A stretch of 56,304 nt of DNA from NCBI GenBank assembly GCA_020161315.1, contig JAIUOH010000022.1, forward strand, positions 1 through 56,304, written 5' to 3'. This stretch comes from Actinomycetota bacterium (GTDB lineage: Bacteria; Actinomycetota; Actinomycetes; Actinomycetales; Microbacteriaceae). Position numbers and translations under genes: made by a program. The notes under the pieces were generated by a model. That model worked only from the letters and a program-made list of their open reading frames with translations. It searched no databases and was not told the DNA's origin. This document shows positions 9,005 to 55,018 of the stretch, piece after piece; within the stretch, counting starts at the first letter, position 1, and every line of letters starts with the position of its first letter.

Positions 9005-10184
9005 ACACCAGCACACTTCGCCGCTGCCGAACTCGGTGCAGTTCGACCGTGACGACCGCGACGACCACGCAAGTCGCCGCCCCGACGATCGTGATGACCG
9101 GCAGGAGCGCGCACGCGAGGGTTGCCAACGCGGCGAGCAGAAACACCACCGATGCGGTGGCAGGGATTCTGCTGCGAAGCAGGATCAGCCAGACCACCGC
9201 CATGAAGACCGCTACGGGCACGGTGAGCGAGAGCGAAGCCGTCGCGGTACTCAGGTGTTCCGACGCCCCCGAGAGCAGATCGAGTTCGACCTCGATACCT
9301 GCCGAGATCGCGCCGATCGCGGCGAACAGCAGATAGTGCGCGTATCCGAACGCGAATCCGCTGCTCGCCGAGTCGAGTTGTTCGCCGTACTCGTGAGAGA
9401 AATACATCCACCACACACCGGCGGCCAACACGAGACCTGCCGCAGCGAGCCCGACGATGCCGTCGACATGCTCGCCCGAGTTCAGCGCGTCGATGATCGC
9501 GTTGGCAGAGGCGAGCAGGCTCTCGCCCAGCAGAATCAGCACGAACAGGCTGTAGCGCTCAGCAATGTGATGCGGGTGCCAGGGAGTGTTCCTCGCCCGT
9601 TCGGCCCACACGGGCACAAGCACCTCGAGCAGCATCGCCGGCAAGAAGCTCCAGAACTGCACCTCGGACGAGAAGGCGATCCTCGCCACCCAAATGCACT
9701 GCACCACAGAGATCCCGACCGCGTACCGCAGCGCGACAGCCCTGAGCTCCGGGTCGGACACCGCAAGCCGCACCCACTGCGCGACCATCGCAAGCCGCAT
9801 GATCACGTAGCCCCAGGTGACAGTCGCCCACTCACCCTCGGCCATGGCGTCGTGCACACCAGCTGCGAGCACGAGCACGCCGCCCATCTGCACGATGGTC
9901 GTGACGCGATATAGCCAGTCGTCGGTGTCGAACGCTGAGGCGAACCAGGTGAAGTTCATCCACGCCCACCAGATGGCGAAGAAGATCATGGCGTACGCCA
10001 GCACGGTCGCCATCGCGTGACCCTCGACTATGCCGTGGTGCAGATTCTGCGAAGCCTGCGAAACGGCGATCACGAACACGAGATCGAAGAAGAGCTCGAG
10101 CGAGCTTGCGACGCGGTGCTGCTGGCGAGGGTCGCGACCCGACATGCGTATGAGGCCGAACCGCCCCAGTACCGTGCTGCTCAT
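9003..10184 (-). CDS. ltrA: Low temperature requirement protein A family (LtrA)
   Basis: This is a 393-residue membrane protein with about ten to twelve hydrophobic segments. Diagnostic motifs of the LtrA family are VASSLELFFDLVFVIAVSQ near residue 28, WWAWMNFTWFASAFDTDDW near residue 75 and ERYSLFVLILLGESLLA near residue 210. The biochemical function is unknown; the family is named after a Listeria cold-growth gene. The ATG at 10184 overlaps, as ATGA, the stop of a 38-codon reading frame that carries the strong ribosome binding site. LtrA is therefore probably translated by coupling. Confidence 0.88.
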   Translation of the reverse strand: MSSTVLGRFGLIRMSGRDPRQQHRVASSLELFFDLVFVIAVSQASQNLHHGIVEGHAMATVLAYAMIFFAIWWAWMNFTWFASAFDTDDWLYRVTTIVQMGGVLVLAAGVHDAMAEGEWATVTWGYVIMRLAMVAQWVRLAVSDPELRAVALRYAVGISVVQCIWVARIAFSSEVQFWSFLPAMLLEVLVPVWAERARNTPWHPHHIAERYSLFVLILLGESLLASANAIIDALNSGEHVDGIVGLAAAGLVLAAGVWWMYFSHEYGEQLDSASSGFAFGYAHYLLFAAIGAISAGIEVELDLLSGASEHLSTATASLSLTVPVAVFMAVVWLILLRSRIPATASVVFLLAALATLACALLPVITIVGAATCVVVAVVTVELHRVRQRRSVLV

Positions 10185-10297
10185 GCGCGGGGCGGGCTTC
10201 GGAACGAGGCGACGCGGTCGCCCTCGACTGTGACCAATGCGATCGATTCGCCGGTGACGACCCGTCGCACTGCTTCGGGAACATGAATATTGCTCAT
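10181..10297 (-). CDS. 38-residue ORF coupled to ltrA
   Basis: ATG 10297 follows AAGGAGGAAGAGATT, a near-perfect ribosome binding site. The frame runs 38 codons (MSNIHVPEAVRRVVTGESIA at the start) and ends in TGA overlapping the ltrA ATG as ATGA. LtrA has no good binding site of its own outside this frame. The product could be a real small protein or a translated leader whose job is coupling. The sequence is soluble and I do not recognise a family. Confidence 0.55.
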   Translation of the reverse strand: MSNIHVPEAVRRVVTGESIALVTVEGDRVASFRSPPRA

Positions 10298-10402
10298 AAT
10301 CTCTTCCTCCTTCATCGTTAGAGAGCGCCGCTCTGCAGAAAAGTGACGCCTGTCATCGCTCTCAGCTTGTTGCGCGTATCCGTTGCACGTGACCGTTTGA
10401 AG

Positions 10403-10861
10403 TCAGGATCGTCTGATGGCATCGGTGCCACCTGTGTTCGGCGAGGTCAGCAAGTGTCGAACGAAGAACCGATTCGCGTCTTCCCCCGCGTGCCGCGGCA
10501 CCCCCGTGTGCCCGCCGAGGTTCGCATTCAGTGTCTTCTCTCGCGACCCTAGCGCATCGAAAAGTTCAAGTGCCATCTGCCGGTCGTTGCCCTCGTCATC
10601 CCACTGCAGCAGCATGTAAAGAGGAATGGTGATCCCGTGCGCCTGCTCGAGAATCGACCGGGGCACGTAGCTGCCGGCGAAAAGCACGGCCGCCGCGATT
10701 CGATCATCTACCGCCGCGAGGCGCACTCCGATCGAGACCACCCCGCCCGAGAAGCCGACCGGGCCGGCCGCGACGCGGTTCGGGCGATCCTCGCCGAAAT
10801 ACCTGCTGCCGAGCTGTCTTGACCTAACCTCGTTCGCGTGATTCCTCCCCTCCCGTAGCAA
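10403..10861 (-). pseudogene. Fragment of an alpha/beta hydrolase (dienelactone-hydrolase type)
   Basis: The 152-codon frame matches only the C-terminal part of an alpha/beta hydrolase. It has a nucleophile-elbow-like VGFSGGVVSIGV, then RIAAAVLFAG, then the acid-bearing PLYMLLQWDDEGNDR and the catalytic His segment LGGHTGVPRHAGEDA. Intact relatives are about 240-270 residues and have an N-terminal half that is missing here. The first 25 residues look unrelated, and the elbow lacks the usual GxSxG spacing to its helix. I call it a decayed remnant, not an active enzyme. It lies next to another decayed gene at 11482. Confidence 0.65.
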
Positions 10862-11463: not shown

Positions 11464-14400
11464 CCGCACGCCGATCACCTGATGCCCGCGCGGGATGCAG
11501 CTGCCGAGGTGGCCTCGATCGCGAGAGTGGTCGAGGCCACCTGGCGCATCGAGGCCGCCAAGATCGTCGCGACGCTCACGAGGTACGTGGGTGACTTCGG
11601 CCTCGCCGAGGATCTCGCGCAGGATGCGCTCGCCGCAGCCATGAGCGAGTGGCCGCGCTCGGGCGTGCCGGCCTACCCTGCCGCGTGGCTGACAACGACG
11701 GCGAAGCGGCGGGCGATCGATGGGTGGCGCAGGCGCGAGAATTTTGAAAAGAGGATCCCGCTGCTCGCCGATGAGCAGCGAGTGATTGAGGGGGCCGAAG
11801 CCACCGAGCTGCCCTGGAACCCCGACGTCATCGAAGACGATGTGCTGCGCCTCGTGTTCATCTCGTGCCACCCGGTGCTGCTCGCCGGCCAGCAGCGCAC
11901 CCGCTGGGATCGCTCGCTCATCGGGCTCGGAAATCGTTCCCTCGCAAAGGCACGCGAATCGTGGGCCCGACGATCTGCCGAGAGCGGGCGAAGCGAATCG
12001 GGCTCCTACACTCTGCAGGCCGAGATTGCCGCGTGCCATGCGGCTGCCCCGCGTTTCGAGCTGACCGACTGGCGGCGCATCGCCGAACTGTACGCGCAGC
12101 TTTGCGCGGTCGCCCCGTCGCCGATCACTGAACTGGGTCGGGCAATCGCGGTCGCCGAAGCAGACGGGCCCGCCGCCGGGCTTGCGCTCGTAGAAGGTCT
12201 CGCCGACACCAAGCAGCTCAGCGAGCAGAGTGAGCACCGCGGCGGCGGTGCTCGGGTCTTCGATCCGCTCGTGCGCTGCGCTTTCTCCGGAGCCCACCTT
12301 GACTCCGAGATCCTCCGGCCCGAGCGACACGAAGACGTCTTCGTCGGTCACGTCGTCTCCGAGAAAGAGCACCCGCGCATCGGGAAGAGAGGATCGTATG
12401 CTCTTGAGCATCGAGCCCTTGTCTGACTGGCGCAACGTGAACTCGCGCACCTCCTTTCCCGACCTCACATGCAGGCCGGAGTCGGTGCCGAGGTGTTCGG
12501 CTGCCTCGAGCAATTCTGAGGCGTGGGCCCGGTCTGCGACGGCCCTCGTGTGCACGGCGATCCCGAACGGCTTTCGCTCGAGATAGACACCAGCGACCTC
12601 GCGAAATATTCGATTGAGCCTCGTGGTGAAACGCTCCAAGCGCTGAGTCTCTTGCTCGCTGGGCTCGAGAAGGGCCGGCGTCGCATCTGCGCTGGGGGCC
12701 CGGTTGCGGCTTTGCGTGCCTTGGTCGCGCTGTCGCTTTCCCGGCTCGCTGAGCTCGGCTCCGTGAGAACCAGAGACGATCCAGGCGTCTGACTCGAGCC
12801 CGGTAGCCGCGAGGCTGGTCAGCGACCTACCCGAGAGCAACACGACAGTCACGCCCTGCGCCTCGGCAAGGGAATTGAGGGCGCGCTGCGCGGCCGGAAG
12901 AATCTTGGCGTCTTGCGGGCGCGAAACCAGCGGCGCGACCGTACCATCGAAGTCGACCGCGACGATCAGACTCGGATGCGCTGCGAGGCGCCGGATGCCG
13001 TCGGCAACGCGGTCAGGTATGCTCGGCGCGCTCGCCGCGAACGCATCAGCCGATTGGGCGGCCTCGCGCTGCTGACGCATCTTCGTTGCCTGTGAGACCG
13101 CCTCGAGAAGGCTCTCGGTCCAGTGCGCTACGTCGTGCTGGCGCACTGTCTCTCGCATCGCGTGCATGCGGCGCTGCTGCTCTGCAGCCGGCATGTGCAC
13201 CGCGCGCAGAATCGCCGCTTTCAGGCCCTCGATGTCGTGCGGGTTGACGAGCACCGCACCCTGCAGCTCGTCGGCGGCGCCCGCGAACTCGCTGAGCACC
13301 AGGGCTCCGGTATCGTCGACCCGACAGGCCGCATACTCTTTGGCAACCAGGTTCATGCCGTCTCGAAGCGGAGTGACGAGCATCACATCGGCGGCGAGAT
13401 AGAACGACACCATCTCTTCTCGTGAGTAGCTTCGGTGCAGATAGACGAGGGGTGTGTGCCCGATATCGCCGTGTTCACCGTTGAGACGCCCAGCGGTGGT
13501 TTCAACCTCGTCGCGAAGTGCGCGGTAGGCGTCGACGCGCTCGCGGCTCGGAGAGGCGATCTGCACGAAAGTGATCTCGCGCGTCTCGAGCTCGCCGTCG
13601 GCAAGCATCTCTTCGTACGCCTTGAATCGGTGCAGAATTCCCTTCGTGTAATCGAGGCGATCGACCCCGAGCACGAGGGTCTGAGGGTTGCCGAGTTCTT
13701 CACGAATCTCGCGTGCCCGACACCGCACCTCATGCCGACGTGCCAGCCGCTCGATCGTCTGCGTATCGATGGAGATCGGAAACTCGCGGGCGAGCACTGG
13801 CCTTGTGGCACCGTGTTGCTCCTGTGCGGGCACGAGCACTGAGTTCTCGTGTATTGCGTAGCCAGCAATTCGCTCGGCGGCTTCGCGGAATGCGCTTGCG
13901 TCGGCTTCGCGCTGAAAGCCGAGGATGTCTGCGCCGAGCAGCCCCTCGATGATGCGTCTGCGCCAGGGAAGCTGAGCGAAGAGCCGTGTCGGCGGAAACG
14001 GGATGTGCAGAAAGAAGGCGATGACCAGGTCGGGGCGTTGCTCGCGCAGCATCTCTGGCACGAGCTGCAGCTGGTAGTCGTGCACCCAGACGAGCGCGTC
14101 GGGTGCGGCGACCTGAGCAACGCGCTCGGCAATCCGGCGGTTGACCTCGCAGTAGCGCTCCCACCACTCGCGGTGATACTCGGGTGGGGCAATGACATCG
14201 TGATACAGCGGCCAGAGGGTGCCGTTTGCGAAACCCTCGTAGTACAGCTCGACGTCTTTACCGCTCAGCGGCACGGGAACCAGCCGCATAGAACCGAGTT
14301 CGAACGGCTCGATCGTTTCGTCGGCATTGCCTGCCCAGCCCACCCACATGCAGCCCAGTTCTTCGACCACGGGCCCAACCGCCGAGACGAGCCCTCCCGG

Positions 14401-14648: not shown

Positions 14649-15623
14649 ATGAGCACTGGGCATGTCGGGATCGTCTGGAATCCCTCGAAGACGTCGCGTT
14701 ATGAACTCGAGAACGCGCTCGAGAAAGCATTTGAGCGAGTGCTGACGGGCACCGCAGAAGTGCGAGTCTCATGGCACGAAACGGGCGAGGACGACCCGGG
14801 GCTTGGCGCAGCGCGGGGCGCAGTCGAAGCCGGGGCAGATGTCGTGCTCGCCGCGGGCGGCGACGGTACGGTTCGGGCGGTGGCCGAGCATCTTGCCGAG
14901 AGTGGCGCACGCGCCGAGCTCGGCATCATTCCCCTCGGAACGGGTAACCTGCTCGCACGTAATCTCGGTGTGCCGCTCAAAGATCTCACCGCCGCGTTCG
15001 AGCGGGCGTTGACCGGCGAGGCGATCCCACTCGATATCGGCTGGGCGAGACTTGCTGTCGACGGCGAAACCGATGGCAAACGCTACGCCTTCGCGGTGAT
15101 GGCGGGGTTCGGCATCGACGCGCACATGATCACCGAGACCGACGACGACCTCAAGGACCGTGCCGGGTGGCTCGCCTACGTCGAATCGTTGGGGCGCGCG
15201 CTGTCGGCGAGCGAGGTGATCGATATTCGCTTGTCGGGCCAGAACCTCGAACCCTCCGATGAGCAGGCGCACACCCTGCTCATTGGCAACTGCGGCAGCC
15301 TGCAGGGCGGCATGACACTGTTGCCCGACGCCGACCCCAGCGATGGAGAGCTCGATCTGCTCGTGCTGAGCGCCGACAGCATCCCCGGCTGGGCCGATAC
15401 GATGCGAAATCTGGTGTGGGATAACGGGCTGAGGCGTCTGCTCTCGCCGTCATCGAGCGACGAGGATCAGGCCAAGAGCAGCGACAGCGCCACTCACCGG
15501 CGCATCACAGAACTAACGGTAGAGCTCGATGAGCCGCGTGTTTTCGAGGTCGACGGCGATGCTCTGGGTGAAACGAGCCGCGTCGAGATATCGGTGCAGC
15601 CGGGGGCAGTGCAGGTGCGCTAA
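14649..15623 (+). CDS. Diacylglycerol/lipid kinase family protein
   Basis: This 324-residue protein starts HVGIVWNPSKTSRYELENAL and carries the nucleotide-binding AAGGDGTVRAVAEHL at about residues 72-86. It then has LGIIPLGTGNLLARNLGVP and GFGIDAHMI, all typical of the DagK/sphingosine-kinase-like fold. These cytosolic or membrane-associated enzymes phosphorylate diacylglycerol or related lipids with ATP. The ATG at 14649 has GAGGAG upstream. It is divergent from otsAB, with about 145 bases between the starts for both promoters. Confidence 0.88.
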   Translation: MSTGHVGIVWNPSKTSRYELENALEKAFERVLTGTAEVRVSWHETGEDDPGLGAARGAVEAGADVVLAAGGDGTVRAVAEHLAESGARAELGIIPLGTGNLLARNLGVPLKDLTAAFERALTGEAIPLDIGWARLAVDGETDGKRYAFAVMAGFGIDAHMITETDDDLKDRAGWLAYVESLGRALSASEVIDIRLSGQNLEPSDEQAHTLLIGNCGSLQGGMTLLPDADPSDGELDLLVLSADSIPGWADTMRNLVWDNGLRRLLSPSSSDEDQAKSSDSATHRRITELTVELDEPRVFEVDGDALGETSRVEISVQPGAVQVR

Positions 15624-16335: not shown

Positions 16336-16347
16336 GCAAAGAGCATA

Positions 16348-16378: not shown

Positions 16379-16422
16379 ACTCACGGAAGCTGTGACGATG
16401 TTTGTATACTCGGCGAGGATCA

Positions 16423-16466: not shown

Positions 16467-17300
16467 ATGGCAATCGAATTCTTCGCACAGCACCCAGGCG
16501 GCCACGTCGTTCTCAGCGCGATCGAGCCGTTCAAGTTTCCCGGAGGGGAGTGGCACCTGCGGCTTCCGGCTGAGCCCGAGACTCCGGCGTACGCCCGGGT
16601 CAACGGATGCACGGCCGATGACCTCGTGCTGCTCGGCCTCTGGGCAGACAGCGCGCACCAGGCGGGCCACCGTGCGATCGCGCACATTCCCTACCTGCCG
16701 GCGGCGCGCGCCGATCGGGGCACCCCTTTTGGTGCGAAGGTCTACGCAAACATGCTCAATGCGGCGGGCCTCGACGAGGTGGTGGTGTTCGACCCGCACT
16801 CGCCGGTCGCGCCGAGCCTCGTGCAGAACATCAGAATCGTCTACTCGGCCGAGGTGCTCGCCGAAGTGCTGCGCGAGGCAGGCGAAACCGACAGTTACAG
16901 CGCAGTGCTCGCCCCAGACAAGGGCGCGGTCGAGCGGGCGTCGAAGGCCGCCGACGCGCTCGGGCTGCCGCTCTTCACCGCGACGAAGACCCGCGACTTC
17001 GACACCGGCAAGCTCACCAGCTTCGAGGTGCCGCAGCTGCCGCGAAGCGGCAGGATCCTCGTCGTTGACGACATCTGCGACGGAGGCGGTACGTTTCGCG
17101 GCCTCGCAACCGCCGCCGGCATCGGGCGCGACCGCCTGGGCCTCTGGGTGTCGCACGGCATCTTCTCGGGAGCCGCCGGCGAACTCACAGGTCACTTCGC
17201 CCAGATCTTCACCACCGACTCCCACCCCGGCGCCCGTCGCGCAGACGTCGGAGCCCACGTCACCGAACTTGCCCCGTATCTCGAGTCAGAGAGGAACTGA
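16467..17300 (+). CDS. prs: Ribose-phosphate pyrophosphokinase-like protein of the NAD salvage operon
   Basis: This 277-residue protein has the PRPP synthetase/type I phosphoribosyltransferase signature ILVVDDICDGGGTFRGLA at about 195-212 and PDKGAVERASKAADALG upstream. It supplies 5-phosphoribosyl-1-pyrophosphate from ribose-5-phosphate and ATP. It is shorter than housekeeping Prs (about 310-325), as in the nadV-linked versions. The next gene, two bases away, is nadV, which consumes PRPP, so the pair is functionally linked. The ATG at 16467 was chosen over an earlier in-frame ATG at 16461. Confidence 0.88.
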   Translation: MAIEFFAQHPGGHVVLSAIEPFKFPGGEWHLRLPAEPETPAYARVNGCTADDLVLLGLWADSAHQAGHRAIAHIPYLPAARADRGTPFGAKVYANMLNAAGLDEVVVFDPHSPVAPSLVQNIRIVYSAEVLAEVLREAGETDSYSAVLAPDKGAVERASKAADALGLPLFTATKTRDFDTGKLTSFEVPQLPRSGRILVVDDICDGGGTFRGLATAAGIGRDRLGLWVSHGIFSGAAGELTGHFAQIFTTDSHPGARRADVGAHVTELAPYLESERN

Positions 17301-18787: not shown

Positions 18788-19452
18788 CCACGGGCTCTGG
18801 GGTGAGTTCGATGCTCGAAAAGGATCAGGGCCGACCGGCGGGGGGCTGGCAACAGCCCCTCGTCTCGGTCGACGTGGTGGCGCTTTCGTGGCGCGACGAG
18901 CAGCTGCGATTCGCGCTGCACGAGCGCCCCAACGAGCCGTTTGCGGGTCGAAGCGCGCTGCCAGGGGTGCTGCTCTTGCCGGGCGAACTGCTGGGCGGCG
19001 CCGTGACACGTGCGCTCGAGTCGAAGCTCGCGCTTGCGCGGGACCAGATTGCGCACGTGGGCCAGGTCGGCGCGTTCGACGGCACCAACCGCGATCCTCG
19101 TGGCGCCACAATCTCGATCGCGCACCTCGCCGTCATCTCAGGCTCGGAGGGTGAATTACCGCTCGGAAGCTGGGAGACCAGCGCTGAGGGGCTGCCCTTC
19201 GATCATGACGCGATCGTCGCTGCCACCTTTGCAGAGCTCGGCCTGCGCCTCTGGAATGACTGGGAACTGACCCGGGCGATCCTCGGCGAACAATTCACGA
19301 CCAAATCGGCGCTTGCGCTCTCGCACCGACTCGATGCGGTGCCGGGTCGTGCCTCAAACATCGCCCGGTGGCTTGAGGCGACCGGGCGCGTGCGCCGTGC
19401 AGGTTCGAGCGGTCGGGCGGCCGTCTGGCAGTGGGAATCGCCGGTACAGTAA
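18784..19452 (+). CDS. nrtR: NrtR, Nudix-related repressor of NAD metabolism
   Basis: This is a 222-residue protein. Residues 20-150 are a Nudix-like domain (VSVDVVALSWRDEQLRFAL, then ALPGVLLLPGE) in which the catalytic Nudix box REx2EExGU is degraded, as usual for NrtR. Residues 155-220 form a winged helix (FTTKSALALSHRLDAVPGRA). NrtR proteins bind ADP-ribose or NAD-related ligands and release DNA. GTG 18784 overlaps the nadV stop as GTGA. The repressor probably acts on the palindrome at 16423-16453 and so controls its own operon. Confidence 0.88.
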   Translation: MTTGSGVSSMLEKDQGRPAGGWQQPLVSVDVVALSWRDEQLRFALHERPNEPFAGRSALPGVLLLPGELLGGAVTRALESKLALARDQIAHVGQVGAFDGTNRDPRGATISIAHLAVISGSEGELPLGSWETSAEGLPFDHDAIVAATFAELGLRLWNDWELTRAILGEQFTTKSALALSHRLDAVPGRASNIARWLEATGRVRRAGSSGRAAVWQWESPVQ

Positions 19453-20369: not shown

Positions 20370-20990
20370 CTAGATCCACCCCTTATCGCGGGCAATTCGC
20401 GCAGCCTCTGCGCGGTTGCCCGCGCCGGTCTTGCCGATCGCGGCCGACAGGTGGTTGCGCACCGTGCCCGCCGAGAGAAACACCTCGGCAGCGATCGCCG
20501 CCGCGCTGAGGCCGTCGCCTGCGAGTCGTAAGACCTGCCGTTCGCGCTCGGTGAGGGGGTTCGCGCCCTCGAAGAGCGAAGCCTCGGCGAGCGCCGGGTC
20601 AACGACGCGCAACCCCGCATGCACGCGTCGTACGGCGTCGGCAAGTTGCTCTGGCGGGGCGTCTTTCACGATGAAGCCGCCGGCTCCGGCATCGAGAGCG
20701 GCCCGCAAATAGCCGGGCCGGGCGAAGGTCGTGACCACGAGCACTCTCGTGCCCGGGTTCGCCTCGCGCACGCGTTTTGTCGCGAGGATCCCGTCGTCGC
20801 CGGGCATCTGAATGTCCATGAGGCAGACATCTGGGGCGAGTTCGATCGTCTGCTGCACCGCTTCGTCGGCGTTCGCAGCCGTACCGGCGGTGTGCAAATC
20901 GGCCTCGAGATCGAGCAGCGCCCCGAGCGCACCTCGCACGAGCGCCTGGTCATCGACGATGAGCAGCCGAATAGGAGCCTGGACTACCAC
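20370..20990 (-). CDS. LuxR/NarL-type response regulator
   Basis: This is a 206-residue response regulator. The receiver domain has IVDDQ near residue 12, the phosphoacceptor Asp59 in LMDIQMPG, and the conserved Thr and Lys in VVTTFARPGYL and GFIVKDAPP. The C-terminus is a LuxR-type HTH with LTERERQVLRLAGDGLS. GTG 20990 overlaps the kinase stop by 7 bases. With the kinase and the ABC-2 exporter upstream on the same strand it forms a DesKR-like module, and probably controls that exporter. Confidence 0.9.
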   Translation of the reverse strand: MVVQAPIRLLIVDDQALVRGALGALLDLEADLHTAGTAANADEAVQQTIELAPDVCLMDIQMPGDDGILATKRVREANPGTRVLVVTTFARPGYLRAALDAGAGGFIVKDAPPEQLADAVRRVHAGLRVVDPALAEASLFEGANPLTERERQVLRLAGDGLSAAAIAAEVFLSAGTVRNHLSAAIGKTGAGNRAEAARIARDKGWI

Positions 20991-22093: not shown

Positions 22094-22899
22094 TCGGCGA
22101 TCCTCGCCACTGACTCTTCGACACGGTTCTGCACCAACGGCCAGAACGTATCGGCCCAAATCTCATACCCGCGGTCGTTCGGGTGAAACGCGTCTTCGGC
22201 GAACTCGGTGAAGATGCCGGTGAGGCCGCGGCGCCGGGTCGCCTCATACAGCGGTACGACCGCGAGGCCCCGCGCTTCGGCGATGGCGTGCACCATGCCG
22301 TTTGCCTCGATCACCTTGCGGTCGTTCCAGGGCAAGTGAAAGCAGGGCAGCTCCGAGACGATCGTCTTTGGAGGCAGCACATCAAGAATGGTGTTGAGGT
22401 TGCGGTGAAACGCGACCGGGTTCCACTCGGCGATGTCGTTCGCCCCGATGGCGAGGGTCACGAGATCGGGGGTGTGCTTCGCGAGCACCTTCTCTGCGCG
22501 CGGCAGCTGGTCGCGCACGCACAGCCGCGTCGGCGCGCCCGAGACGCCGAGGTTCGTCGCTGCGATGGGGGTGCCGAGCTGCGCCTCGATGCGGTCGGCG
22601 AGCTGACCCACGTAGCTGCGGCCCGGGATAGAGGCCCCGATGCCCTGCGCTGTCGAGTCGCCGAGCGCGAGGTAGTGAAACTCGCCGGCCTGCTTGCGGC
22701 GCTCGCGCCACCACGCGGCGGTCACGGGCTGCATCTCGGCGAGCCGCATGAGGGGGCGGTTCGCTCGCTCGAACAGCGCCTCTTGCCCGAGCGAGCGAGC
22801 GAGATTCGCCGTCGCCGATAGGGCAAGGGCCTTGGCGCCGAACGCGGGGGAGTTTGCTGAGTGCACGCACCCAGCGTAATCCAGCGATGTCGCGAACAT
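22090..22899 (-). CDS. SGNH/GDSL-family hydrolase
   Basis: This protein of about 269 residues has the block I motif YLALGDSTAQGIGAS with the catalytic Ser, block III IGANDIAEWN and block V DAFHPNDRGYEIWA with the Asp/His pair. These are esterases or lipases acting on acyl or acetyl groups. No signal peptide is clear, so it is probably cytoplasmic. The start could be ATG 22899 or GTG 22866. It lies between an exporter and a two-component system with a GTGA overlap to the kinase gene, which suggests a shared membrane-lipid or antibiotic-defence task. Confidence 0.85.
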   Translation of the reverse strand: MFATSLDYAGCVHSANSPAFGAKALALSATANLARSLGQEALFERANRPLMRLAEMQPVTAAWWRERRKQAGEFHYLALGDSTAQGIGASIPGRSYVGQLADRIEAQLGTPIAATNLGVSGAPTRLCVRDQLPRAEKVLAKHTPDLVTLAIGANDIAEWNPVAFHRNLNTILDVLPPKTIVSELPCFHLPWNDRKVIEANGMVHAIAEARGLAVVPLYEATRRRGLTGIFTEFAEDAFHPNDRGYEIWADTFWPLVQNRVEESVARIAE

Positions 22900-23696: not shown

Positions 23697-24692
23697 CTAC
23701 TCGCCGGCGTCTTGGGTGAGGGCAGTGAACGCCGTTTCGAGGGTGGGCGCGACGATCTCGAGGTCGTGTGCGCCGAGCTCGAGCAGCTTTGCGGCCAGCG
23801 CGTCAGAGCGCGCGGTGCGCACCCGCATGATGCCCGAGGCGTCGATCTGCATATCGGTTGCCTGCAAGCCATCGAGCAGCCCGCCTTGTTTCAGTGCGTC
23901 GAGGATCGCCCCTACGGTCACCGTGTTGACCGGCCCGGGCAGTGTCGCGGTGACGGTGCGGCCGCCGAGTGCGGCACGAAGTTCTGCCGTGGCACCATCG
24001 GCGACGATCTTGCCACGGTTCATCACGACGGTGCGCTGCGCGAACTGTTCGGCCTCTTCGAGATAATGGGTCGCGAACACGATCGTGCGACCCGCGCGGG
24101 CCTCTTCTGCCATCGCCTCCCAGAAGCTGCGGCGCGCGACAACGTCCATGCCCGTCGTCGGCTCATCGAGCACGAGCACGTCGGGGTCGGGCAAGAGCGC
24201 GAGCGCAAACTTGATGCGCTGCTGTTCGCCGCCAGAGCACTTGCTGACCTTTCGCTTAGCGATGGGTGCAAGCCCGGTTCGCTCCATCACTTCGGTCACC
24301 CGAGCGCGAGCGCCGTGAAAGCTCGCGATGACGTCGACCGTCTCGGCCACGGTGAGATCGCTCAGCAACCCACCAGTCTGCAGCAGTGCCGAGAGCCTGC
24401 CCGAGGCAACCGCCTGGCGGGGGCTCTGACCGAGCACCTCGACCGCACCTTCATCGGGGTCGCTCAGCCCGAGCAGCATGTCGATCGTGGTGGTCTTGCC
24501 CGCGCCGTTCGGCCCGAGCAGTGCGACGATCTCACCGCGCCCCACCGTCAGATCGACGCCGGCGACTGCTCGCACGCGGCGCTCGCCGCCACCGAATCCT
24601 TTGGCGAGGCCAGTGATCTCGATAGCCGGAGCGTCTTGCGTTGCCCGACTTGCCGTGGGCTCTGTTGGGGTGCTGCGTGTGTTCATACTCAC
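23697..24692 (-). CDS. ABC exporter ATP-binding protein
   Basis: This protein of about 331 residues has Walker A LLGPNGAGKTTT, the signature CSGGEQQRIKFALAL (with Cys in place of the common Leu or Ser), Walker B VLVLDEPT and the H-loop VFATHYLEEAEQ. The roughly 90-residue C-terminal extension resembles DrrA-type drug exporter ATPases. Start codons GTG 24692 and ATG 24686 are both possible. It heads the minus-strand run exporter-hydrolase-kinase-regulator. Confidence 0.9.
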   Translation of the reverse strand: MSMNTRSTPTEPTASRATQDAPAIEITGLAKGFGGGERRVRAVAGVDLTVGRGEIVALLGPNGAGKTTTIDMLLGLSDPDEGAVEVLGQSPRQAVASGRLSALLQTGGLLSDLTVAETVDVIASFHGARARVTEVMERTGLAPIAKRKVSKCSGGEQQRIKFALALLPDPDVLVLDEPTTGMDVVARRSFWEAMAEEARAGRTIVFATHYLEEAEQFAQRTVVMNRGKIVADGATAELRAALGGRTVTATLPGPVNTVTVGAILDALKQGGLLDGLQATDMQIDASGIMRVRTARSDALAAKLLELGAHDLEIVAPTLETAFTALTQDAGE

Positions 24693-27275: not shown

Positions 27276-27899
27276 CTAAAGATCGGCGACCGGCTGCCGC
27301 AGCAGCGTGCGCATCTTCTCAGGAGCGACCTTGCGTGCGTCGGTGAAGTACACCTCGTGGTGTGTGCCCGTCATTCGCAGCCCGTGGGAGGGAATGAAGT
27401 CGTCATGCATGTACGCCAGCGTCGGAGCCTCGTCATCATATGAACCGCGGTGCAGCGTCTGCAGGCAGCGGCCCTCGGCGAGAGATTCGAGGCGCACGTC
27501 GCTGAGCCGCCGCGGCGCGACCTTCGCTCTCGATACCTGCGCGACGGCAGCCTCGAACGCTGCCCGGTCGATCCAGTCGGGGGCGAGGATCATCATGGTC
27601 CAGCTCCACTGAGACTTGTCGCGAGCGCTCGTGAAGGCGGTCATGTCTTCAGCCCACCACAGGCCCTCGAGCGGAGGCACGACGTAGTCGCGGCCGAGAT
27701 CCCGCTTGCTTGAAAACTTCAACTTGTACGCCACCGGATACAGGGCCTCGAGAGCAGCCACGTACTCTTGTGACGTATTCGGGTCGCCGCTGCCGTCGAT
27801 CATGAGGTACTGCAGCTCGGGCACGTCGATTACCCGAAACTCGCCGGCCCTCGCCTGATAGCTGTCGAGGGTCTTCTTGAAGTCGATCTTTTGGGTCAT
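27276..27899 (-). CDS. GyrI-like small-molecule-binding domain protein
   Basis: This is a 207-residue soluble protein. VPELQYLMIDGSGDPNTSQEYVAALEALYPVAYKLKF and WSWTMMILAPDWI are typical of the stand-alone GyrI-like family; each of these segments is cited from residues 20-125. A C-terminal pair AYMHDDFIPSHGL and HHEVYFTDARKVAPEKMRT completes it. These proteins bind hydrophobic small molecules and some hydrolyse them. ATG 27899 with AGGAG upstream decides the start. It converges with leuA. Confidence 0.85.
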   Translation of the reverse strand: MTQKIDFKKTLDSYQARAGEFRVIDVPELQYLMIDGSGDPNTSQEYVAALEALYPVAYKLKFSSKRDLGRDYVVPPLEGLWWAEDMTAFTSARDKSQWSWTMMILAPDWIDRAAFEAAVAQVSRAKVAPRRLSDVRLESLAEGRCLQTLHRGSYDDEAPTLAYMHDDFIPSHGLRMTGTHHEVYFTDARKVAPEKMRTLLRQPVADL

Positions 27900-29113: not shown

Positions 29114-29146
29114 AGATCCTCGCCCCGAATGCTCGCGACCGGCCCG

Positions 29147-31107: not shown

Positions 31108-31162
31108 GACATGGGGGCTGGTTATTGGAAATTCCAATAACCAAAATGTTGAGGGGCGAGGA

Positions 31163-35412: not shown

Positions 35413-35563
35413 GGCACGTTGATTTAGTCTGCACACGCTCCGGTGCACCCGAGCCGCGCGCTTGCTTCGTTGTCAAAGCTCAACGATGCTTCCGGCATCG
35501 CCTCGCAATCACGCATCTCGGGCACATCCTCGCCAGCGCACAGACTAAATCAACGCACCCTAG
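35409..35563. mobile_element. MITE-like inverted-repeat element, copy 1
   Basis: A 155-base element has 23-base terminal arms (35409-35431 and 35541-35563) that pair at 21 positions, both edged by CTAG. On the minus strand the inside reads GCTGGCGAGGATGTGC (35537-35522), GTGATTGCGAGGCG (35512-35499) and GACAACGAAGCAAGCGC (35474-35458), which recur in the element at 41042. It encodes no protein. The CTAG edges fit a 4-base target duplication as in IS5-type insertion, so a non-autonomous element is the leading view. A structured RNA gene is the alternative. Confidence 0.6.
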
Positions 35564-40223: not shown

Positions 40224-40355
40224 GCGTGCGGGTGCCGGTCGAGCCCTTCGACAGGCTCAGAATGTGGGCCAGTTGCATACGCCGCCGGCCGAGCATGTAG
40301 GGACCAAACGAAAGCGTGCATCTCGACAAGCTCGATGAACGGCGCGAAGTGGCGA

Positions 40356-41041: not shown

Positions 41042-41207
41042 CTAGGGCATGTCTTGTAAATGGTGGTGCTGGCGAGGATGTGCTCGAAGTCTGTGATCGC
41101 GAGGCGGAGGAGGAGGCTTTGCTGGTGGCAAAGCCGACGACGACAACGAAGCGAGCGCTGACTTGGAGCGCACCGCAGCGCGACACCATTTACAAGACAT
41201 GACCTAG
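41042..41207. mobile_element. MITE-like inverted-repeat element, copy 2
   Basis: A 166-base element has 24-base arms (41042-41065 and 41184-41207) that pair at 23 positions, edged by CTAG. It shares three core blocks with the element at 35409: GCTGGCGAGGATGTGC (41068-41083), GTGATCGCGAGGCG (41093-41106) and GACAACGAAGCGAGCGC (41142-41158). The arms differ almost fully from those of copy 1, yet pair as well. The next gene starts 10 bases after it, so it probably carries or displaces that gene's promoter. Confidence 0.6.
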
Positions 41208-41216: not shown

Positions 41217-41621
41217 ATGAGCGAAGCTACCTACGTCGTACGCAAATGGGTCAAGCCTGACGACCTGAACCAGCACGGTGCGCTGTTCGGTGGCAGGCTG
41301 CTGCAGTGGGTCGATGAAGAGGCCGCGATTGTTGCGATCACGCAGCTCGGCACGATTGAGGTGGTGACGCGTCACATCTCGGCGCTCGATTTCGTTGCGC
41401 GAGCAGAGCGAGGCGACCTGCTCGAGCTCGAGTACCGCGTGCTGAGCTTCGGCCGCACCTCGCTCAGTCTGAGCTGCCGCGTGTTCAACTCCGTGACCGG
41501 CCATGACATTCTGCGGCTCGAGAACATCGTTTTCGTTGCGGTTGATAGCGATGGCAACCCCGTCGCGCACGGCCAGACACTCACGACCGCCGGCACGGAG
41601 CGGCTGCGCACCGCCGGCTGA
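41217..41621 (+). CDS. Acyl-CoA thioesterase, hotdog fold (YciA-like)
   Basis: This 134-residue protein has the hotdog pattern of acyl-CoA hydrolases: NQHGALFGGRLLQWVDEEAA with the catalytic Asp, then RHISALDFVARAERGDLLEL and FVAVDSDGNP near the end. It hydrolyses acyl-CoA thioesters in the cytosol. ATG 41217 lies 10 bases after an inverted-repeat element, with CTCGGAGC as a weak ribosome site. Its TGA begins a copy of the repeated 10-mer. Confidence 0.9.
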   Translation: MSEATYVVRKWVKPDDLNQHGALFGGRLLQWVDEEAAIVAITQLGTIEVVTRHISALDFVARAERGDLLELEYRVLSFGRTSLSLSCRVFNSVTGHDILRLENIVFVAVDSDGNPVAHGQTLTTAGTERLRTAG

Positions 41622-41629
41622 TCCTCGCC
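41620..41629 (+). repeat. Iterated 10-mer GATCCTCGCC (representative copy)
   Basis: This copy overlaps the thioesterase stop codon. The same 10-mer occurs on the plus strand at 9678, 10786, 22099, 29115, 31564, 43752, 52809 and 54975, and as GGCGAGGATC at 16412, 27582, 31155 and 42496. By eye that is 13 exact copies. The core GGCGAGGAT is also inside both inverted-repeat elements. No function is known to me. Confidence 0.75.
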
Positions 41630-42443: not shown

Positions 42444-42503
42444 TTTCGTTTGTGCGGCACCCGAGCCTGTCGTGGCGTCGATGCCCGGCATTTCGGGCGA
42501 GGA

Positions 42504-42959
42504 TCAGCCCAGCTGTTCGAGCGCGGCGGCCTCGATGGGCTCGTCGCTCAGCACGAGAGCGACGTACTTGCGCACCACGGGGAGCGCCGCTGAGCCCGCG
42601 TTGAACTGCACCGCGACAAACGGGCTCGTCTGGATGAGGCGGAGCGCCTCGAGCGCGGGCATGATCGCACCCTTCGCCTGGTCGCCTCGACCCTTGGGGT
42701 AGGCGAGGCGCAGCTCGTCCATCGAGGTGAAGAGGGGCAGCAGCAGTTGTCCCTTGGTCGATCGCACGGTGCGCACACGGGTCGACTTCTTCTTGTGGGT
42801 GCCCGTCACGTCTGCGACGAGAAAGCCCTCGCGCAGCGCATTCAGAAACTCGGCGAGTCGCTCGTAGTCGGGCGTCTGCTGCAGTGCGGCGAGCGAGTCT
42901 CGCACGCCCTCGTTCACGTAGTCGGGGGTGATGCCCTCTGGAGTCTGCGCTTCGGCCAT
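42504..42959 (-). CDS. SseB-like protein
   Basis: This 151-residue acidic protein has an SseB N-terminal-type domain: FLNALREGFLVADVTGTHKKKST, then QLLLPLFTSMDELRLAYPKG and ALEALRLIQTSPFVAVQFNAGS. This pattern is seen in SseB-family proteins of actinobacteria, whose function is not established. It is monocistronic. Its TGA overlaps a GGCGAGGATC 10-mer. Confidence 0.75.
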   Translation of the reverse strand: MAEAQTPEGITPDYVNEGVRDSLAALQQTPDYERLAEFLNALREGFLVADVTGTHKKKSTRVRTVRSTKGQLLLPLFTSMDELRLAYPKGRGDQAKGAIMPALEALRLIQTSPFVAVQFNAGSAALPVVRKYVALVLSDEPIEAAALEQLG

Positions 42960-43702: not shown

Positions 43703-44499
43703 GTGCTCGGGCCGATCTCGCCCTGCGGGGTGGTGCCGGGCTGCGCCTGGCGATCCTCGCCGCCGATATTGTTGCTGCCACGCGCCGAAAGCTCGCGGTA
43801 GAACGCAATTGCCTCTGCCGGAGGCCCATCGAAGATGACCTGTGCGTCGTCAACCACAAGCGTGCGATCGGCGCGCGCGGCGAGCTCGAGATCGTGCGTG
43901 ATCACGAGCACCTGCTGCGGCAATGACAGCAGCAGGTCGTTGATCATGCGCGCGTTGCGAAGGTCGAGCAGCGTGGTTGGCTCATCAGCAACGAGGATCG
44001 CGGGATCGCTTGCGAGCACCGCCGCGAAGGCGAGCAGCTGCCGTTGCCCGCCAGACAGCGTGTGTACGCTTCGCTCGGCGAGCTGGGCGATGCCGAAACG
44101 CTCGAGCACCGCCCGGGCAGCCTCGAGCCGATCGGGCTTTTTGCGGTGCTCGCGACGCAGCGAGAGCGCCACGTCTTCGAGCACGGTCGGCATGATGAGC
44201 TGCGCGCTGGGGTCGCTGAACACGAAACCGACGAGGCGACGAGCGGCGGCCCCATGGCGTGTGGTGTCTAGGGCTGTTGCGGCGCCGGTGGTGATGTCGG
44301 TGTCGGCCGAGACAATCACGCTGCCCGTCGTGGGCTCGATGAGCCCGTTGCAGAGCCTCGCGAGCGTCGACTTGCCCGAACCGTTGCCGCCGATGATCGA
44401 GATGCGGCGCTCGCCGAGGGTGAGCGTTGTGGGGTGCAGGATCACCGCATCGTGCTCGCCCGAGGGTACGGTGACTCCGGCCCCACGCAATTCGATCAT
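43699..44499 (-). CDS. bioM: Biotin ECF transporter ATPase (BioM)
   Basis: This is a 266-residue ABC ATPase with Walker A IIGGNGSGKSTLARL, Q-loop-like VGFVFSDPSAQLIMPT, signature LSGGQRQLLAFAAVLA, Walker B ILVADEPTTLLD and H-loop VLVITHDLEL. The C-terminal 25 residues are low in order and contain GGED encoded by a GGCGAGGATC 10-mer. It couples ATP hydrolysis to biotin uptake by BioYMN. bioY lies 25 bases upstream. Confidence 0.93.
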   Translation of the reverse strand: MIELRGAGVTVPSGEHDAVILHPTTLTLGERRISIIGGNGSGKSTLARLCNGLIEPTTGSVIVSADTDITTGAATALDTTRHGAAARRLVGFVFSDPSAQLIMPTVLEDVALSLRREHRKKPDRLEAARAVLERFGIAQLAERSVHTLSGGQRQLLAFAAVLASDPAILVADEPTTLLDLRNARMINDLLLSLPQQVLVITHDLELAARADRTLVVDDAQVIFDGPPAEAIAFYRELSARGSNNIGGEDRQAQPGTTPQGEIGPST

Positions 44500-46172: not shown

Positions 46173-46250
46173 CGGCACCGATCCTTGCCGCAAAAACTGT
46201 GCGGGCGACGATGCGCCTGAAAGGTTGGGTTGCGGGGTCTTTCGCCGCGA

Positions 46251-49666: not shown

Positions 49667-49814
49667 TCGAGATCAAGCCTGACGAACTTGCTGTCACGCA
49701 TCTCGGCAAGCTCGATGAGCGGGAGTTGTGCGAGATTGCGCAGACTTTGATCAGTTTGCGCTCGGTGGCGGCGCAAGTCGTGACTTGGGCTGACCCTCGC
49801 CCTATTCTCTGAAC

Positions 49815-51420: not shown

Positions 51421-52833
51421 TCACACCCCGAGTGTGACCCAGCGGTCGCCGCGGGCGCGCAGGCCGAGCGTGAGCGCGCGTGCCAGCATGAACACGATTG
51501 TGAACGCGGCCGTGAGCGCGACGAGCGCAATGGTACCGGTGGGCACGAACACGGTGACGGCCCAGAGCACGGGTAGATAGACGGCAAGATTCGCGAGGCT
51601 CGTCCAGGCGAGGTACCGTGCGTCGCCCGCGCCCATGAGCACTCCGTCGAGCACGAACACGAAACCGCCGAGCGGCAGCGAGAGGCCGAGCACGAGTAAC
51701 GATGGCGGCAGCACCGTTAGTACGTCGGGGTCGCTCGTGAATATACGGCCGAGGATCGGGCTCGTGCCCGCGAGCAACAGGCCGATTGCCGCACCGCACG
51801 TGAGCCCCCAGAACACGGTGCGCCGCAGCACCTGCCTGGCGCGCTCGGCGTTGCGGGCCCCGAGCGCGTCGCCCACAAGCGCCTGTGCGGCGATCGCGAG
51901 GGCATCGAGCGCGAAGGCCGCGGTCGAGAAGATCGTGAAGACCACCTGATAGCCGGCGGTCGCCACCGTGCCGTGGCTGGCAGCGGCCGCGACAGTGAGC
52001 ATGAGCGCCGCGCGCAACCCGATGGTGCGCACGAACAGCCAGCCGCCGCTGCGCCCGGCGCTGCTGAGGCCGTCGAGGTGCGGTAGCAGGCTCGCGCCGT
52101 GCCTTCTCGCGTGTCTCGCCACGACCACGAGATAGATCGCGACCATCGCCCACTGCGCGGCAACCGTGCCCCAAGCGCTACCCGCGATGCCCCAGCCGAG
52201 ACCGTAGATGAACCACCAGTTCAGCAGTGCGTTTGCGGCAAACCCGAGGGTGGCGATGAAGAGCGGGGTGCGCGTGTCTTGCAGGCCGCGCAGCAGACCG
52301 GTCGCCGCGAACACGACGAGCATTGCAGGCAGCCCCGCGCACGAGACCGCGAGATAGATGACCGCCTGCTGCGCCACCCCCGCGTCGGTGCCAAAGAACC
52401 CGACGAGCGGCGTGCTCACCGCCCAGAGGCCCACCCCGAGCACGGCACCAAGGCCGAGTGCGAGCCAGAGCCCGTCGATGCCCGCCTGCACGGCGCCCCG
52501 CAGATCGCCCGCGCCCCGCCTGCGCGCCACCAGGGGTGTGGTGGCGTAGGCCAAGAAGATCATGAGCCCGACCGCTGTCTGCAAGATGGTGCTCGCGATC
52601 GCGAGCCCGGCCAGCGGTTCGGCGCCGAGGTGGCCGATGAGCGCCGAGTCGACGATGAGAAAGAGGGGCTCGGCGACGAGCGCCCCGAGCGCGGGAATCG
52701 CGAGACCGGCGATGCTGCGGTCGATCGCGCGGCGGCCGCGTGTGCGGTTGGCGCCGCTGGCGGCGGTTTGGTCGGCCCGCTCACCCCCGTCTGCCTCGGC
52801 GCCCGGCTGATCCTCGCCCTCTGAAATACTCAC
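51421..52833 (-). CDS. MATE-family efflux protein
   Basis: This 470-residue protein has twelve membrane segments. The MATE pattern is clear: ALVAEPLFLIVDSALIGHLG, then PLAGLAIASTIL, then TPLVARRRGAGDLRGAVQ and, in the second half, VGDALGARNAERARQV. It is the DinF-like type with a polar N-terminus of about 35 residues, part of which (GEDQ) is encoded by a GGCGAGGATC 10-mer. It exports cationic compounds in exchange for H+ or Na+. It converges with the hydrolase gene. Confidence 0.92.
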   Translation of the reverse strand: MSISEGEDQPGAEADGGERADQTAASGANRTRGRRAIDRSIAGLAIPALGALVAEPLFLIVDSALIGHLGAEPLAGLAIASTILQTAVGLMIFLAYATTPLVARRRGAGDLRGAVQAGIDGLWLALGLGAVLGVGLWAVSTPLVGFFGTDAGVAQQAVIYLAVSCAGLPAMLVVFAATGLLRGLQDTRTPLFIATLGFAANALLNWWFIYGLGWGIAGSAWGTVAAQWAMVAIYLVVVARHARRHGASLLPHLDGLSSAGRSGGWLFVRTIGLRAALMLTVAAAASHGTVATAGYQVVFTIFSTAAFALDALAIAAQALVGDALGARNAERARQVLRRTVFWGLTCGAAIGLLLAGTSPILGRIFTSDPDVLTVLPPSLLVLGLSLPLGGFVFVLDGVLMGAGDARYLAWTSLANLAVYLPVLWAVTVFVPTGTIALVALTAAFTIVFMLARALTLGLRARGDRWVTLGV

Positions 52834-52931
52834 CCCTTAACCGTAGCCGTGGGGTACGACATTCTTGGGGTGGGCTTTGAATAGTTCGCGAAGCACAAAG
52901 CTTGCCTGTTGTGATCGATAGGCTTGTGCGC

Positions 52932-54953
52932 ATGACCGCCAACGACGCATCAGCCCCCGTTTCGCCCGGCAACTTTGGCCCCGCAGGCATCGACCTCGCT
53001 GAGATCGACGCGGCGGTGCGCCCACAAGACGACCTGTTTCGCCACATGAATGGCAAGTGGATCGCCCGCACCGAGATTCCGGGTGACAAGGCGCGCTACG
53101 GTTCGTTCGCGGTGCTTGCAGAGAACGCCGAGGCCGCGGTGCGCGACATCATTACGGGTATGGCGGCACCTGCCGCGGGTCTGATCGAGGGTGGTTCAGA
53201 CCGCGAGGCCGACAAGATTGCCGCGCTCTACGCGAGTTTCATGGACGAGGATCGCGCGAACTCTCTTGGTGCTGAGCCGATTGCGGCAGACCTTAAGCGT
53301 GCGCTCGCCGTCGCCTCCATCGCCGAACTCGTCGCGCTGGTTGCCGAGCTCGAACGTCAGGGCCTTGGTGGCTTCTATGGCATGGGGGTCGACAACGATC
53401 CGGGCGACCCGAACCGCTACATCGTGTTCGTGATGCAGGGCGGCATTGGCCTGCCCGACGAGTCGTACTACACCGACGAGCAGTTTGCGGAGGTGCGCGA
53501 GCAGTACCGCGCCCACATCGCGCGCATGCTGCAGCTCGTGGGCTTTGCCGAGGGTGAGGCGTCGCACTTTGCCGCACTCTCATACGACCTAGAGTCGCGC
53601 ATCGCCGCTTCGCACTGGGATCGCGTGGCGAGCCGCGACATTCAGAAGCTGTACAACCTACGCAGCTCCGCAGAGCTTCAAGATCTCACCCCGACACTCG
53701 ACTGGGCTGCCTACCTCGAGGCCGCTGGCGCGCCCGAGTCGGCCTTCGCCGAGGTCGTCGTCGGCATGCCCGACGCGGTTTCGGGCCTCGCCGCGCTGCT
53801 CGTACACGACGAGCTCGAGGCCTGGCGCGCCTGGCTCGTCTGGCAGATCGTGCGCGGCTCTGCCGCACTGCTTTCGACTGAGATCTCAAAGGCAAACTTC
53901 GATTTCTATGGCACTGCGCTGACCGGTGCGACTGAGCAGCGCGAGCGCTGGCGCCGAGGTGTCTCGTTTGTCGAGGGTGCGGTGGGCGAAGCCGTGGGCC
54001 GTCTGTACGTCGAGCGCCACTTTGACGAGTCGGCGAAGGCGTCGATGGATGTGCTGGTGGGCAACCTCGTCGAGGCGTACCGGCAGTCGATTCTTTCGCT
54101 CGCATGGATGGGCGAAGAGACAAAGGAGCGCGCGCTCGAGAAGCTCGCAAAGTTCACCCCCAAGGTGGGCTACCCCGTGAAGTGGCGCGACTATTCGTCG
54201 CTCGCTGTCGACGCTGCCGACCCGCTCGGCAACTCGCGCCGTGTCGCAGAGATGGAGTTCGATCGTGAGCTCGGCAAGGTCGGCAAGCCGATCGACCGTG
54301 ACGAGTGGTTCATGACCCCGCAGACGGTCAACGCGTACTACAACCCCGGCTTCAACGAGATCGTCTTCCCCGCAGCCATTCTGCAGCCACCGTTCTTCGA
54401 TGCCTCGTGGGATGATGCTGCGAACTACGGCGCGATCGGTGCAGTGATCGGCCACGAGATCGGCCACGGCTTCGACGACCAGGGCTCGCAGTACGACGGC
54501 GACGGCAAGCTCACCGATTGGTGGACGGCCGAAGACCGCGAAGCGTTCGAGGCCCGCACCTCGGCGCTTATTGCGCAGTACAACGCGCTCTCGCCAGAGG
54601 GCGCAGACGGTCAGACTGTCAACGGCGAGCTGACGATCGGCGAGAACATCGGCGATCTCTCGGGGCTCGAGATCGCGTGGAAGGCCTACCTCATCTCGCT
54701 CGACGGTGCCGAGCCGCCGGTCGTTGAGGGCCTCAGCGGCGCAGAGCGCTTCTTCCTGGCGTGGGCGCAGGCCTGGCAGCAGAAGTCGCGCCCTGCCGAG
54801 ACGGTGCGACTGCTCACGATCGATCCGCACTCGCCAAACGAGTTCCGTTGCAACCAGATCGTCGCAAACCTGACCCCGTTCCACGAGGCGTTTGGTACGA
54901 AGCCGGGCGATGGCCTGTGGCTCGAGCCAGAAGAGCGCGTCGCCATTTGGTGA
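52932..54953 (+). CDS. M13-family zinc metallopeptidase (neprilysin-like)
   Basis: This is a 673-residue enzyme. The N-terminal domain begins with DDLFRHMNGKWIARTEIPGD. The catalytic domain has NAYYNPGFNEIVFPAAILQ, the zinc motif HEIGH at 508-512 followed by GFDDQGSQYDGDG, and the third ligand Glu in GENIGDLSG at about 571. There is no signal peptide or anchor, so it is a cytosolic PepO-like oligopeptidase. ATG 52932 was chosen over an in-frame start 10 codons earlier. It ends with VAIW, near the usual CxxW end but lacking the cysteine. Confidence 0.95.
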   Translation: MTANDASAPVSPGNFGPAGIDLAEIDAAVRPQDDLFRHMNGKWIARTEIPGDKARYGSFAVLAENAEAAVRDIITGMAAPAAGLIEGGSDREADKIAALYASFMDEDRANSLGAEPIAADLKRALAVASIAELVALVAELERQGLGGFYGMGVDNDPGDPNRYIVFVMQGGIGLPDESYYTDEQFAEVREQYRAHIARMLQLVGFAEGEASHFAALSYDLESRIAASHWDRVASRDIQKLYNLRSSAELQDLTPTLDWAAYLEAAGAPESAFAEVVVGMPDAVSGLAALLVHDELEAWRAWLVWQIVRGSAALLSTEISKANFDFYGTALTGATEQRERWRRGVSFVEGAVGEAVGRLYVERHFDESAKASMDVLVGNLVEAYRQSILSLAWMGEETKERALEKLAKFTPKVGYPVKWRDYSSLAVDAADPLGNSRRVAEMEFDRELGKVGKPIDRDEWFMTPQTVNAYYNPGFNEIVFPAAILQPPFFDASWDDAANYGAIGAVIGHEIGHGFDDQGSQYDGDGKLTDWWTAEDREAFEARTSALIAQYNALSPEGADGQTVNGELTIGENIGDLSGLEIAWKAYLISLDGAEPPVVEGLSGAERFFLAWAQAWQQKSRPAETVRLLTIDPHSPNEFRCNQIVANLTPFHEAFGTKPGDGLWLEPEERVAIW

Positions 54954-55018
54954 CCGCCGCTGCTCGGCGCGCGCGATCCTCGCCCGAAACGGCATATGCG
55001 GGCGGCTACGGTAGAGGA

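Follow-up and report, generated by a model that had tools for sequence, protein, structure and literature searches.

Two Gram-negative families have been described as taking up DNA in a self-specific manner (PMC1626085, PMC3630211; here and below, sources are cited for the portions of them available to us). The uptake signal sequences (USS) of the Pasteurellaceae, with the core AAGTGCGGT, join a short asymmetric core to a one-sided AT-rich flank, occur in both orientations with many copies inside genes, and take clade-specific forms (PMC1626085). The DNA uptake sequences (DUS) of the Neisseriaceae are 10-mers that are frequent in intergenic spacers, form inverted pairs and occur as species dialects (PMC3630211, PMC2397512), and their receptor is ComP (PMC6370729). 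A density of about one per kb is quoted for both USS and DUS (PMC1626085). For monoderm bacteria, the available portion of a 2025 paper holds that DNA uptake shows no sequence specificity (PMC12153270). Here we analyze a 10-mer, GGCGAGGATC, in a 56,304-nucleotide stretch of DNA (the window) from a genome placed in Leucobacter, family Microbacteriaceae, through a same-genus relative, G007, that shares a letter-identical contig with Leucobacter sp. UBA1945. With modest confidence, we consider this word to be probably the core of a genomic self-DNA tag, one that would serve a monoderm as a DNA uptake sequence on the plan of the Pasteurellaceae USS.

The word shares with USS each of the features named above. 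It differs in its core, in having one tract 5' of the core where USS have two tracts 3' of it, in an exact-copy density that is about one tenth of that of USS, and in its host, which is Gram-positive. Likewise, it resembles DUS in length, in its frequency in spacers, in forming inverted pairs and in its dialect-like distribution, whereas DUS have no flanking motif in the available portion of PMC1626085, are far denser, and form numerous inverted pairs where we find few (3). A third highly iterated short word, HIP1 of cyanobacteria (GCGATCGC), also contains GATC (PMC4390886), and the initial annotation of the window had suggested a HIP1-like element. The fit is poor: HIP1 is palindromic and is discussed in connection with methyltransferases, whereas GGCGAGGATC is non-palindromic and carries a one-sided AT tract. 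Among the matches listed in our literature searches, no such tag in Actinobacteria was described, and those listed for the 10-mer itself were unrelated by title; the available portion of a paper on Micrococcus luteus (PMC8467076) contains none of the queried uptake-tag terms.

Copy number and placement of the 10-mer

The window contains 13 exact copies of GGCGAGGATC, four on the plus strand and nine on the minus strand, and an exact count recovered every copy listed by the initial annotation. By chance, far fewer would be expected: 100 dinucleotide shuffles of the window gave a mean of 0.42 and a maximum of 2, and a third-order Markov model of the window predicts 0.56. The whole genome (3,012,743 bases in 74 contigs, with tabulated completeness of 99.26% and contamination of 5.29%) holds 301 copies, 150 forward and 151 reverse, or 0.10 per kb, while the reversed word, used as a control, does not occur in it at all (0 copies).

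Placement was analyzed in a detailed sample of 830,240 bases (27.6% of the genome, 19 contig pieces), with genes called by a home-made caller; its spacers amount to 86 kb, and contig-end spacers are excluded from nearly all spacer counts. We observed 32 copies in spacers, where a second-order Markov model predicts 0.30, and 63 copies in genes, where 50 synonymous shuffles give a mean of 11.7 (standard deviation 2.9, maximum 19). The over-representation therefore exceeds what composition and codon use provide, in spacers and genes alike, as would be expected of an uptake sequence. By position, the 99 sampled copies comprise 62 genic and 32 intergenic ones, 4 that straddle the end of a gene, and 1 at the end of a contig; each of the four straddling copies incorporates a TGA stop into the word. 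Spacers, gene ends and tolerated reading frames are also the places in which an uptake sequence would be expected to accumulate. The exact copies in the window are as follows.

9678..9687, minus strand: inside gene 9003-10145 (-)
10786..10795, minus strand: intergenic
16412..16421, plus strand: intergenic, divergent
22099..22108, minus strand: final codons of gene 22090-22866 (-)
27582..27591, plus strand: inside gene 27276-27899 (-), frame xILA; retained in G007
29115..29124, minus strand: intergenic, 3' of ilvD; retained in G007
31155..31164, plus strand: on the TGA stop of gene 31163-32116 (-)
31564..31573, minus strand: inside gene 31163-32116 (-), frame GED
41620..41629, minus strand: on the TGA stop of gene 41217-41621 (+); absent at the aligned place in G007
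42496..42505, plus strand: on the TGA stop of gene 42504-42959 (-); retained in G007 despite a differing flank
43752..43761, minus strand: inside gene 43699-44499 (-), frame GED
52809..52818, minus strand: inside gene 51421-52833 (-), frame GED
54975..54984, minus strand: about 26 bases beyond the stop of gene 52911-54953 (+), in an uncertain gene start

Most of what the initial annotation had said of these positions agrees with our independent gene calls. The copies at 31155, 41620 and 42496 do overlap stop codons, and that at 22099 is indeed close to one. Three copies had been called intergenic, which fits 16412 and 29115; 54975 lies just past a stop yet inside the uncertain start of the next gene, and 10786 is intergenic too by our calls. 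The proposed enrichment at gene ends persists in a weaker form over the 830 kb, where convergent spacers are the richest in the model sites introduced below. Coding copies had been said to fall in different frames, and several frames are in fact used, though unevenly (GED 26/62, xILA 23/62, others 13/62). Of 80 occurrences of Ile-Leu-Ala preceded by G, 23 use the spelling ATCCTCGCC, compared with 2 of 60 preceded by other bases.

The extended motif, its orientation and its spread

GGCGAGGATC is the center of a longer, one-sided motif that begins with an AT-rich tract 3 to 8 bases before the word, continues through GG and the core, and ends in a purine and GC-rich DNA. Around the 99 copies, the AT share at positions -8 to -3 is 0.57 against a background of 0.36 (z 10.2), and the mirror region downstream is GC-rich, with an AT share of 0.27; a one-sided AT-rich flank of the kind that characterizes USS is thus present. 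A flank model trained on the 36 copies outside genes (in spacers and across gene ends) also recognized the 62 genic copies, both relative to random genic places (p 3e-14) and relative to 435 genic occurrences of GGCGAGG with other endings (p 5e-11). In a blind screen for an upstream AT tract, limited to 8-mers seen at least 66 times here, CGAGGATC ranked first (z 15.3, 307 places). The same screen, applied to five other Leucobacter genomes (80-160 kb each) for dialects, gave z values of at most 5.2.

An expectation-maximization model fitted on the spacers shows a weak preference for A/T from -10 to -3, with T at -6 to -4, and G at both -2 and -1. Next comes the core, G G C G A G G A T C, less strict at its first two positions, followed by a purine and by G/C. 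This model identifies 70 spacer sites versus 2 in reversed spacers, an in-sample figure since the model was fitted on those spacers, and, out of sample, 225 genic sites versus 78 in synonymous shuffles. Across the 830-kb sample there are 314 model sites, or 3.78 per 10 kb (0.38 per kb), and the longest gap without one, 14.4 kb, is within random expectation. The window contains 33 model sites. Those listed below are the ones beyond the exact copies, found with the 24-position model at a score of at least 12; about one third of the genic ones are expected from codon use alone.

1921..1930, minus strand: further model site
7533..7542, minus strand: further model site
8898..8907, minus strand: further model site
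10124..10133, plus strand: further model site
11748..11757, plus strand: further model site
15459..15468, plus strand: further model site
16814..16823, minus strand: further model site
19093..19102, minus strand: further model site
19278..19287, minus strand: further model site
20781..20790, plus strand: further model site
23898..23907, plus strand: further model site
28420..28429, plus strand: further model site
29814..29823, plus strand: further model site
35525..35534, minus strand: further model site
41071..41080, plus strand: further model site
43990..43999, plus strand: further model site
46180..46189, minus strand: further model site
49792..49801, minus strand: further model site
51748..51757, plus strand: further model site
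53244..53253, plus strand: further model site

The motif occurs in both orientations without replication polarity, as an uptake sequence would. Neighboring exact copies share their orientation in 30 pairs and differ in 51, and neighboring model sites do so in 126 and 169 pairs, respectively. On the contig piece that carries dnaA, dnaN and gyrB near its start (C3), all 18 model sites lie beyond dnaA and split 9/9 between the strands. An apparent one-strand bias in several genomes of the family, among the matches listed, proved to be an artefact, as 100 of 102 copies in one of them (G083) show both strands. Transcription leaves no mark either: in co-directional spacers, 7 exact copies are sense and 9 antisense, and model sites number 23 and 22 by transcript strand. 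Model sites are most frequent in convergent spacers (1.20 per kb; 17 in 14.1 kb), followed by co-directional (0.98 per kb; 45 in 46.0 kb) and divergent ones (0.58 per kb; 15 in 26.0 kb), so the excess in divergent spacers or upstream of genes that a promoter regulator would produce was not found in these spacers. Inverted pairs, which in the case of DUS are common in terminators, number 3 (within 25 bases) in this genome and 1 each in G054, G083 and G196 among 198 other genomes of the family. This indifference to replication strand, transcription strand and promoters suggests that, if the motif acts, it does so as double-stranded DNA and without polarity, and that it prefers tolerant places.

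The motif is strong in this genome and in G007; a further 14 samples of Leucobacter show it weakly or lack it. G007 is a near relative, with a median identity of 91.3% for the 12 proteins compared; identities to twelve other samples range from 42.8 to 82.9% (1 to 16 proteins each, paralogues possible), and G004 and G014 offered no comparable protein. Exact spacer copies number 32 in 86 kb here. G007 has 3 in 6.9 kb, including one inverted pair, and the other 14 samples together have 6 in 170 kb, 5 of them in G004. The excess in G004 (5 vs 0.20) was set aside, as 3 of the 5 belong to one tandem repeat; at G004 C1 34185-34224 (L180), the 10-mer occurs three times in a tandem 15-base repeat. Model sites in spacers give a similar picture, with 0.81 per kb here, 0.72 in G007 (5 in 6.9 kb), and 0 to 0.36 in 15 others (the 14 Leucobacter and G083), the top value being 2 hits in 5.6 kb. 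Among 54 Leucobacter genomes, A/T at both -6 and -5 is found in 109/301 copies here, 81/273 in G007, 29/87 in G010 and 29/112 in G252; the share is low in most of the 54, with 8/205 in G004. Six further genomes reach 20-29% (G014 6/21, G238 6/24, G251 11/45, G250 5/22, G260 33/154, G009 24/119), indicating that the A/T share alone is no proof of the motif. Roughly 100 copies in many Microbacteriaceae had raised the prospect of family-wide conservation, which we rejected because G083 and 12 of the 14 other Leucobacter samples have no exact spacer copies; most copies in the family are therefore taken to be codon-driven.

Alignment of 35.7 kb to G007 (mean identity 0.852) gives a core identity of 0.917 versus 0.806 and 0.842 for the flanks over 18 model sites, in alignments above 76.5% identity with two presumed paralogous matches excluded. 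One G007 copy aligns with a one-letter variant here, and the word at 42496 is kept in G007 behind differing yet T-rich flanks.

Two other repeats were observed in the window. A family around CTCGACAAGCTCGA, resembling repetitive extragenic palindromes, occurs at 40322 and 51386 and in other spacers of the genome, its 10- and 12-mers having 7-15 copies in the 50 kb of spacer DNA sampled first. Inverted copies of GTAACAGCGGA lie in two window spacers (31046/31074 and 43029/43057/43076), and a 12-mer containing it occurs 9 times over 4 spacers of the first sample.

A putative uptake code

With its short asymmetric core, its AT tract on one side, its lack of polarity, its permissive placement and its strength in few species, in a genome that has the uptake channel, the motif follows the pattern of the Pasteurellaceae USS and in part that of the Neisseria DUS. 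The channel is represented by a full-length pair of genes on contig C51, where comEA (225 aa; SLBB and helix-hairpin-helix domains) lies together with comEC (853 aa; Competence and lactamase-B domains), and natural transformation has been reported for Rhodoluna and Aurantimicrobium, of the same family as Leucobacter (available portion of PMC11577799). We infer both that the tag would be read during uptake and that a reader for it exists. In such a scheme, competent cells would bind the AT tract and core on double-stranded DNA through a protein at their surface or linked to a pilus, and would preferentially take up DNA from their own or a closely related species, passing it on via ComEA and ComEC. 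Tagged fragments would be imported and recombined more often, such that mutations creating or restoring a tag would spread, within tolerated places (gene ends, spacers and permissive frames), until hundreds of copies had accumulated. More tentatively, we propose that such a self-DNA uptake code is still in use and had an independent origin in a monoderm actinobacterium, competent Leucobacter of this clade recognizing the core and AT tract on double-stranded DNA at the cell surface.

Of the readings offered by the initial annotation, a DNA uptake signal is the best fit, on account of the spacer and genic excess, the AT tract and the lack of polarity; low density and a looser consensus than in known cases count against it. 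The density, at 0.10 exact or 0.38 model sites per kb, is short of the roughly one per kb that is typical, if not defining, of uptake sequences. In an uptake sequence with a strong consensus, perfect copies would far outnumber singly mismatched ones; here, spacers hold 32 perfect copies versus 40 singly mismatched ones over 30 variants, 21 of the 40 differing outside the first two positions, and genes hold 63 perfect versus 229 singly mismatched copies, 192 of which are expected by shuffling. Another form of the word, CG(C/T)GGGATC, likewise carries an AT tract, equally far from GGATC, and is itself in excess in spacers (18 vs 1.48 and 9 vs 0.67) and genes (51 vs 15.4 and 29 vs 5.9). It may represent another dialect, or the same protein may read the word less strictly. 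Sparseness and looseness could reflect a young, weak or decaying code.

Several further observations weigh against an uptake code. The spacing between exact copies is random (coefficient of variation 0.93; random 0.83-1.10), and neighbors alternate slightly more often than chance (51/81, p 0.026; 169/295, p 0.014), for which we offer no explanation. In the comparison with G007, the AT tract is not itself conserved (identity 0.741), so that composition rather than letters would be what is kept. At 5 non-genic sites, the core (0.775) is above the upstream flank (0.620) and below the downstream one (0.881). At places aligned to G007 (above 74% identity and 200 bases), G007 retains 4 of the 6 exact copies and lacks the other 2. 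All of these figures from the comparison with G007 rest on small numbers. Codon-pair bias accounts for some of the excess in genes, and 12 of 15 other genomes show genic ratios of 1.3-4.5 over shuffled sequence (one shuffle each) without a comparable spacer density. GAG-GAT outnumbers GAG-GAC before C by 101 to 12 in genes of this genome, from which we take the genic excess in relatives to be mostly a codon-pair effect and discount that seen here in part.

ComEC is found in 52 of 54 Leucobacter regardless of motif strength, and its presence was rejected as a correlate of the motif because, being near universal, it does not discriminate. A crude letter search of 27.6% of the genome for Tad/Flp and DprA gave one spurious match, and no receptor or pilus was found, the pilus having been sought by a crude letter search of the same 27.6%. 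Separately, the ComEC match begins 26-28 positions into the Pfam model in G005, G006, G015, G017, G020, G225 and G245; in six of these seven Leucobacter the ComEC open frames are 569-700 aa, compared with at least 815 in most others (exceptions G009 492, G240 653, G251 725).

Alternative explanations and meaning

The alternative that survives best, which we nonetheless regard as unlikely, is that the motif is bound in the cytoplasm by a nucleoid-associated or architectural protein, which would need the AT tract beside the CGAGGATC core and would have hundreds of sites in genes and spacers. A single DNA-binding protein would require just such a combination of core and AT tract, and the consensus is looser than in classical uptake tags. 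Such a protein fits less well with an excess in genes too, with the fewest sites in divergent (promoter) spacers, with the lack of strand preference and with a motif that is strong in few species; moreover, there are hundreds of perfect copies, whereas regulatory sites are usually more relaxed (available portion of PMC1626085).

A relic, that is, an uptake sequence that was selected ancestrally, is decaying and is no longer read even here, seems to us somewhat more improbable. It would account for the low density, the mixed forms and the patchy occurrence by flank counts in this genome, G007 and G010, the DNA identity of G010 being not visibly closer than that of G017 or G243. Two observations argue against decay: the core is better kept than the flanks over the 18 sites, and the neighbor word GGCGAGGACC is missing, with 0 copies in genes vs 15.7 expected and 1 vs 301 genome-wide. 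As a control, this absence was given little weight, since GAG-GAC is avoided generally.

A polar chromosome signal, either an FtsK-orienting polar sequence (KOPS) or a Chi-like recombination site, is very improbable. KOPS and Chi are short iterated words that are polar along replichores. GGCGAGGATC is likewise short, G-rich and highly iterated, and the initial annotation had proposed a chromosome-orienting or recombination motif; that proposal is contradicted, in the sample analyzed, by the lack of orientation bias among neighbors and beyond dnaA, and 32 of 99 copies lie in spacers. Equally improbable is an element acting at the level of transcription or RNA, such as an intrinsic terminator stem or an RNA-binding site. 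Inverted pairs can form hairpins and convergent spacers do hold more sites, yet 93 of the 99 sampled copies are outside inverted pairs, 62 are within genes, and the equality of sense and antisense copies in co-directional spacers contradicts such a role for single copies. Finally, codon-pair and dipeptide bias alone, which the initial annotation had named as a possible undoing of its claim and which would fit the predominance of GED and xILA frames and the genic excess in relatives without a spacer excess, contributes to the genic excess and is refuted as the full explanation by the intergenic excess (32 vs 0.30) and by the AT tract before genic copies.

If it is real, an actinobacterial tag with this plan of core and AT tract would represent an independent origin, and it would run counter to the view that monoderm DNA uptake is without sequence preference. 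Its receptor would be searchable by comparing close Leucobacter with and without the tag, and the case would be relevant to the question of drive versus advantage in the origin of such tags.

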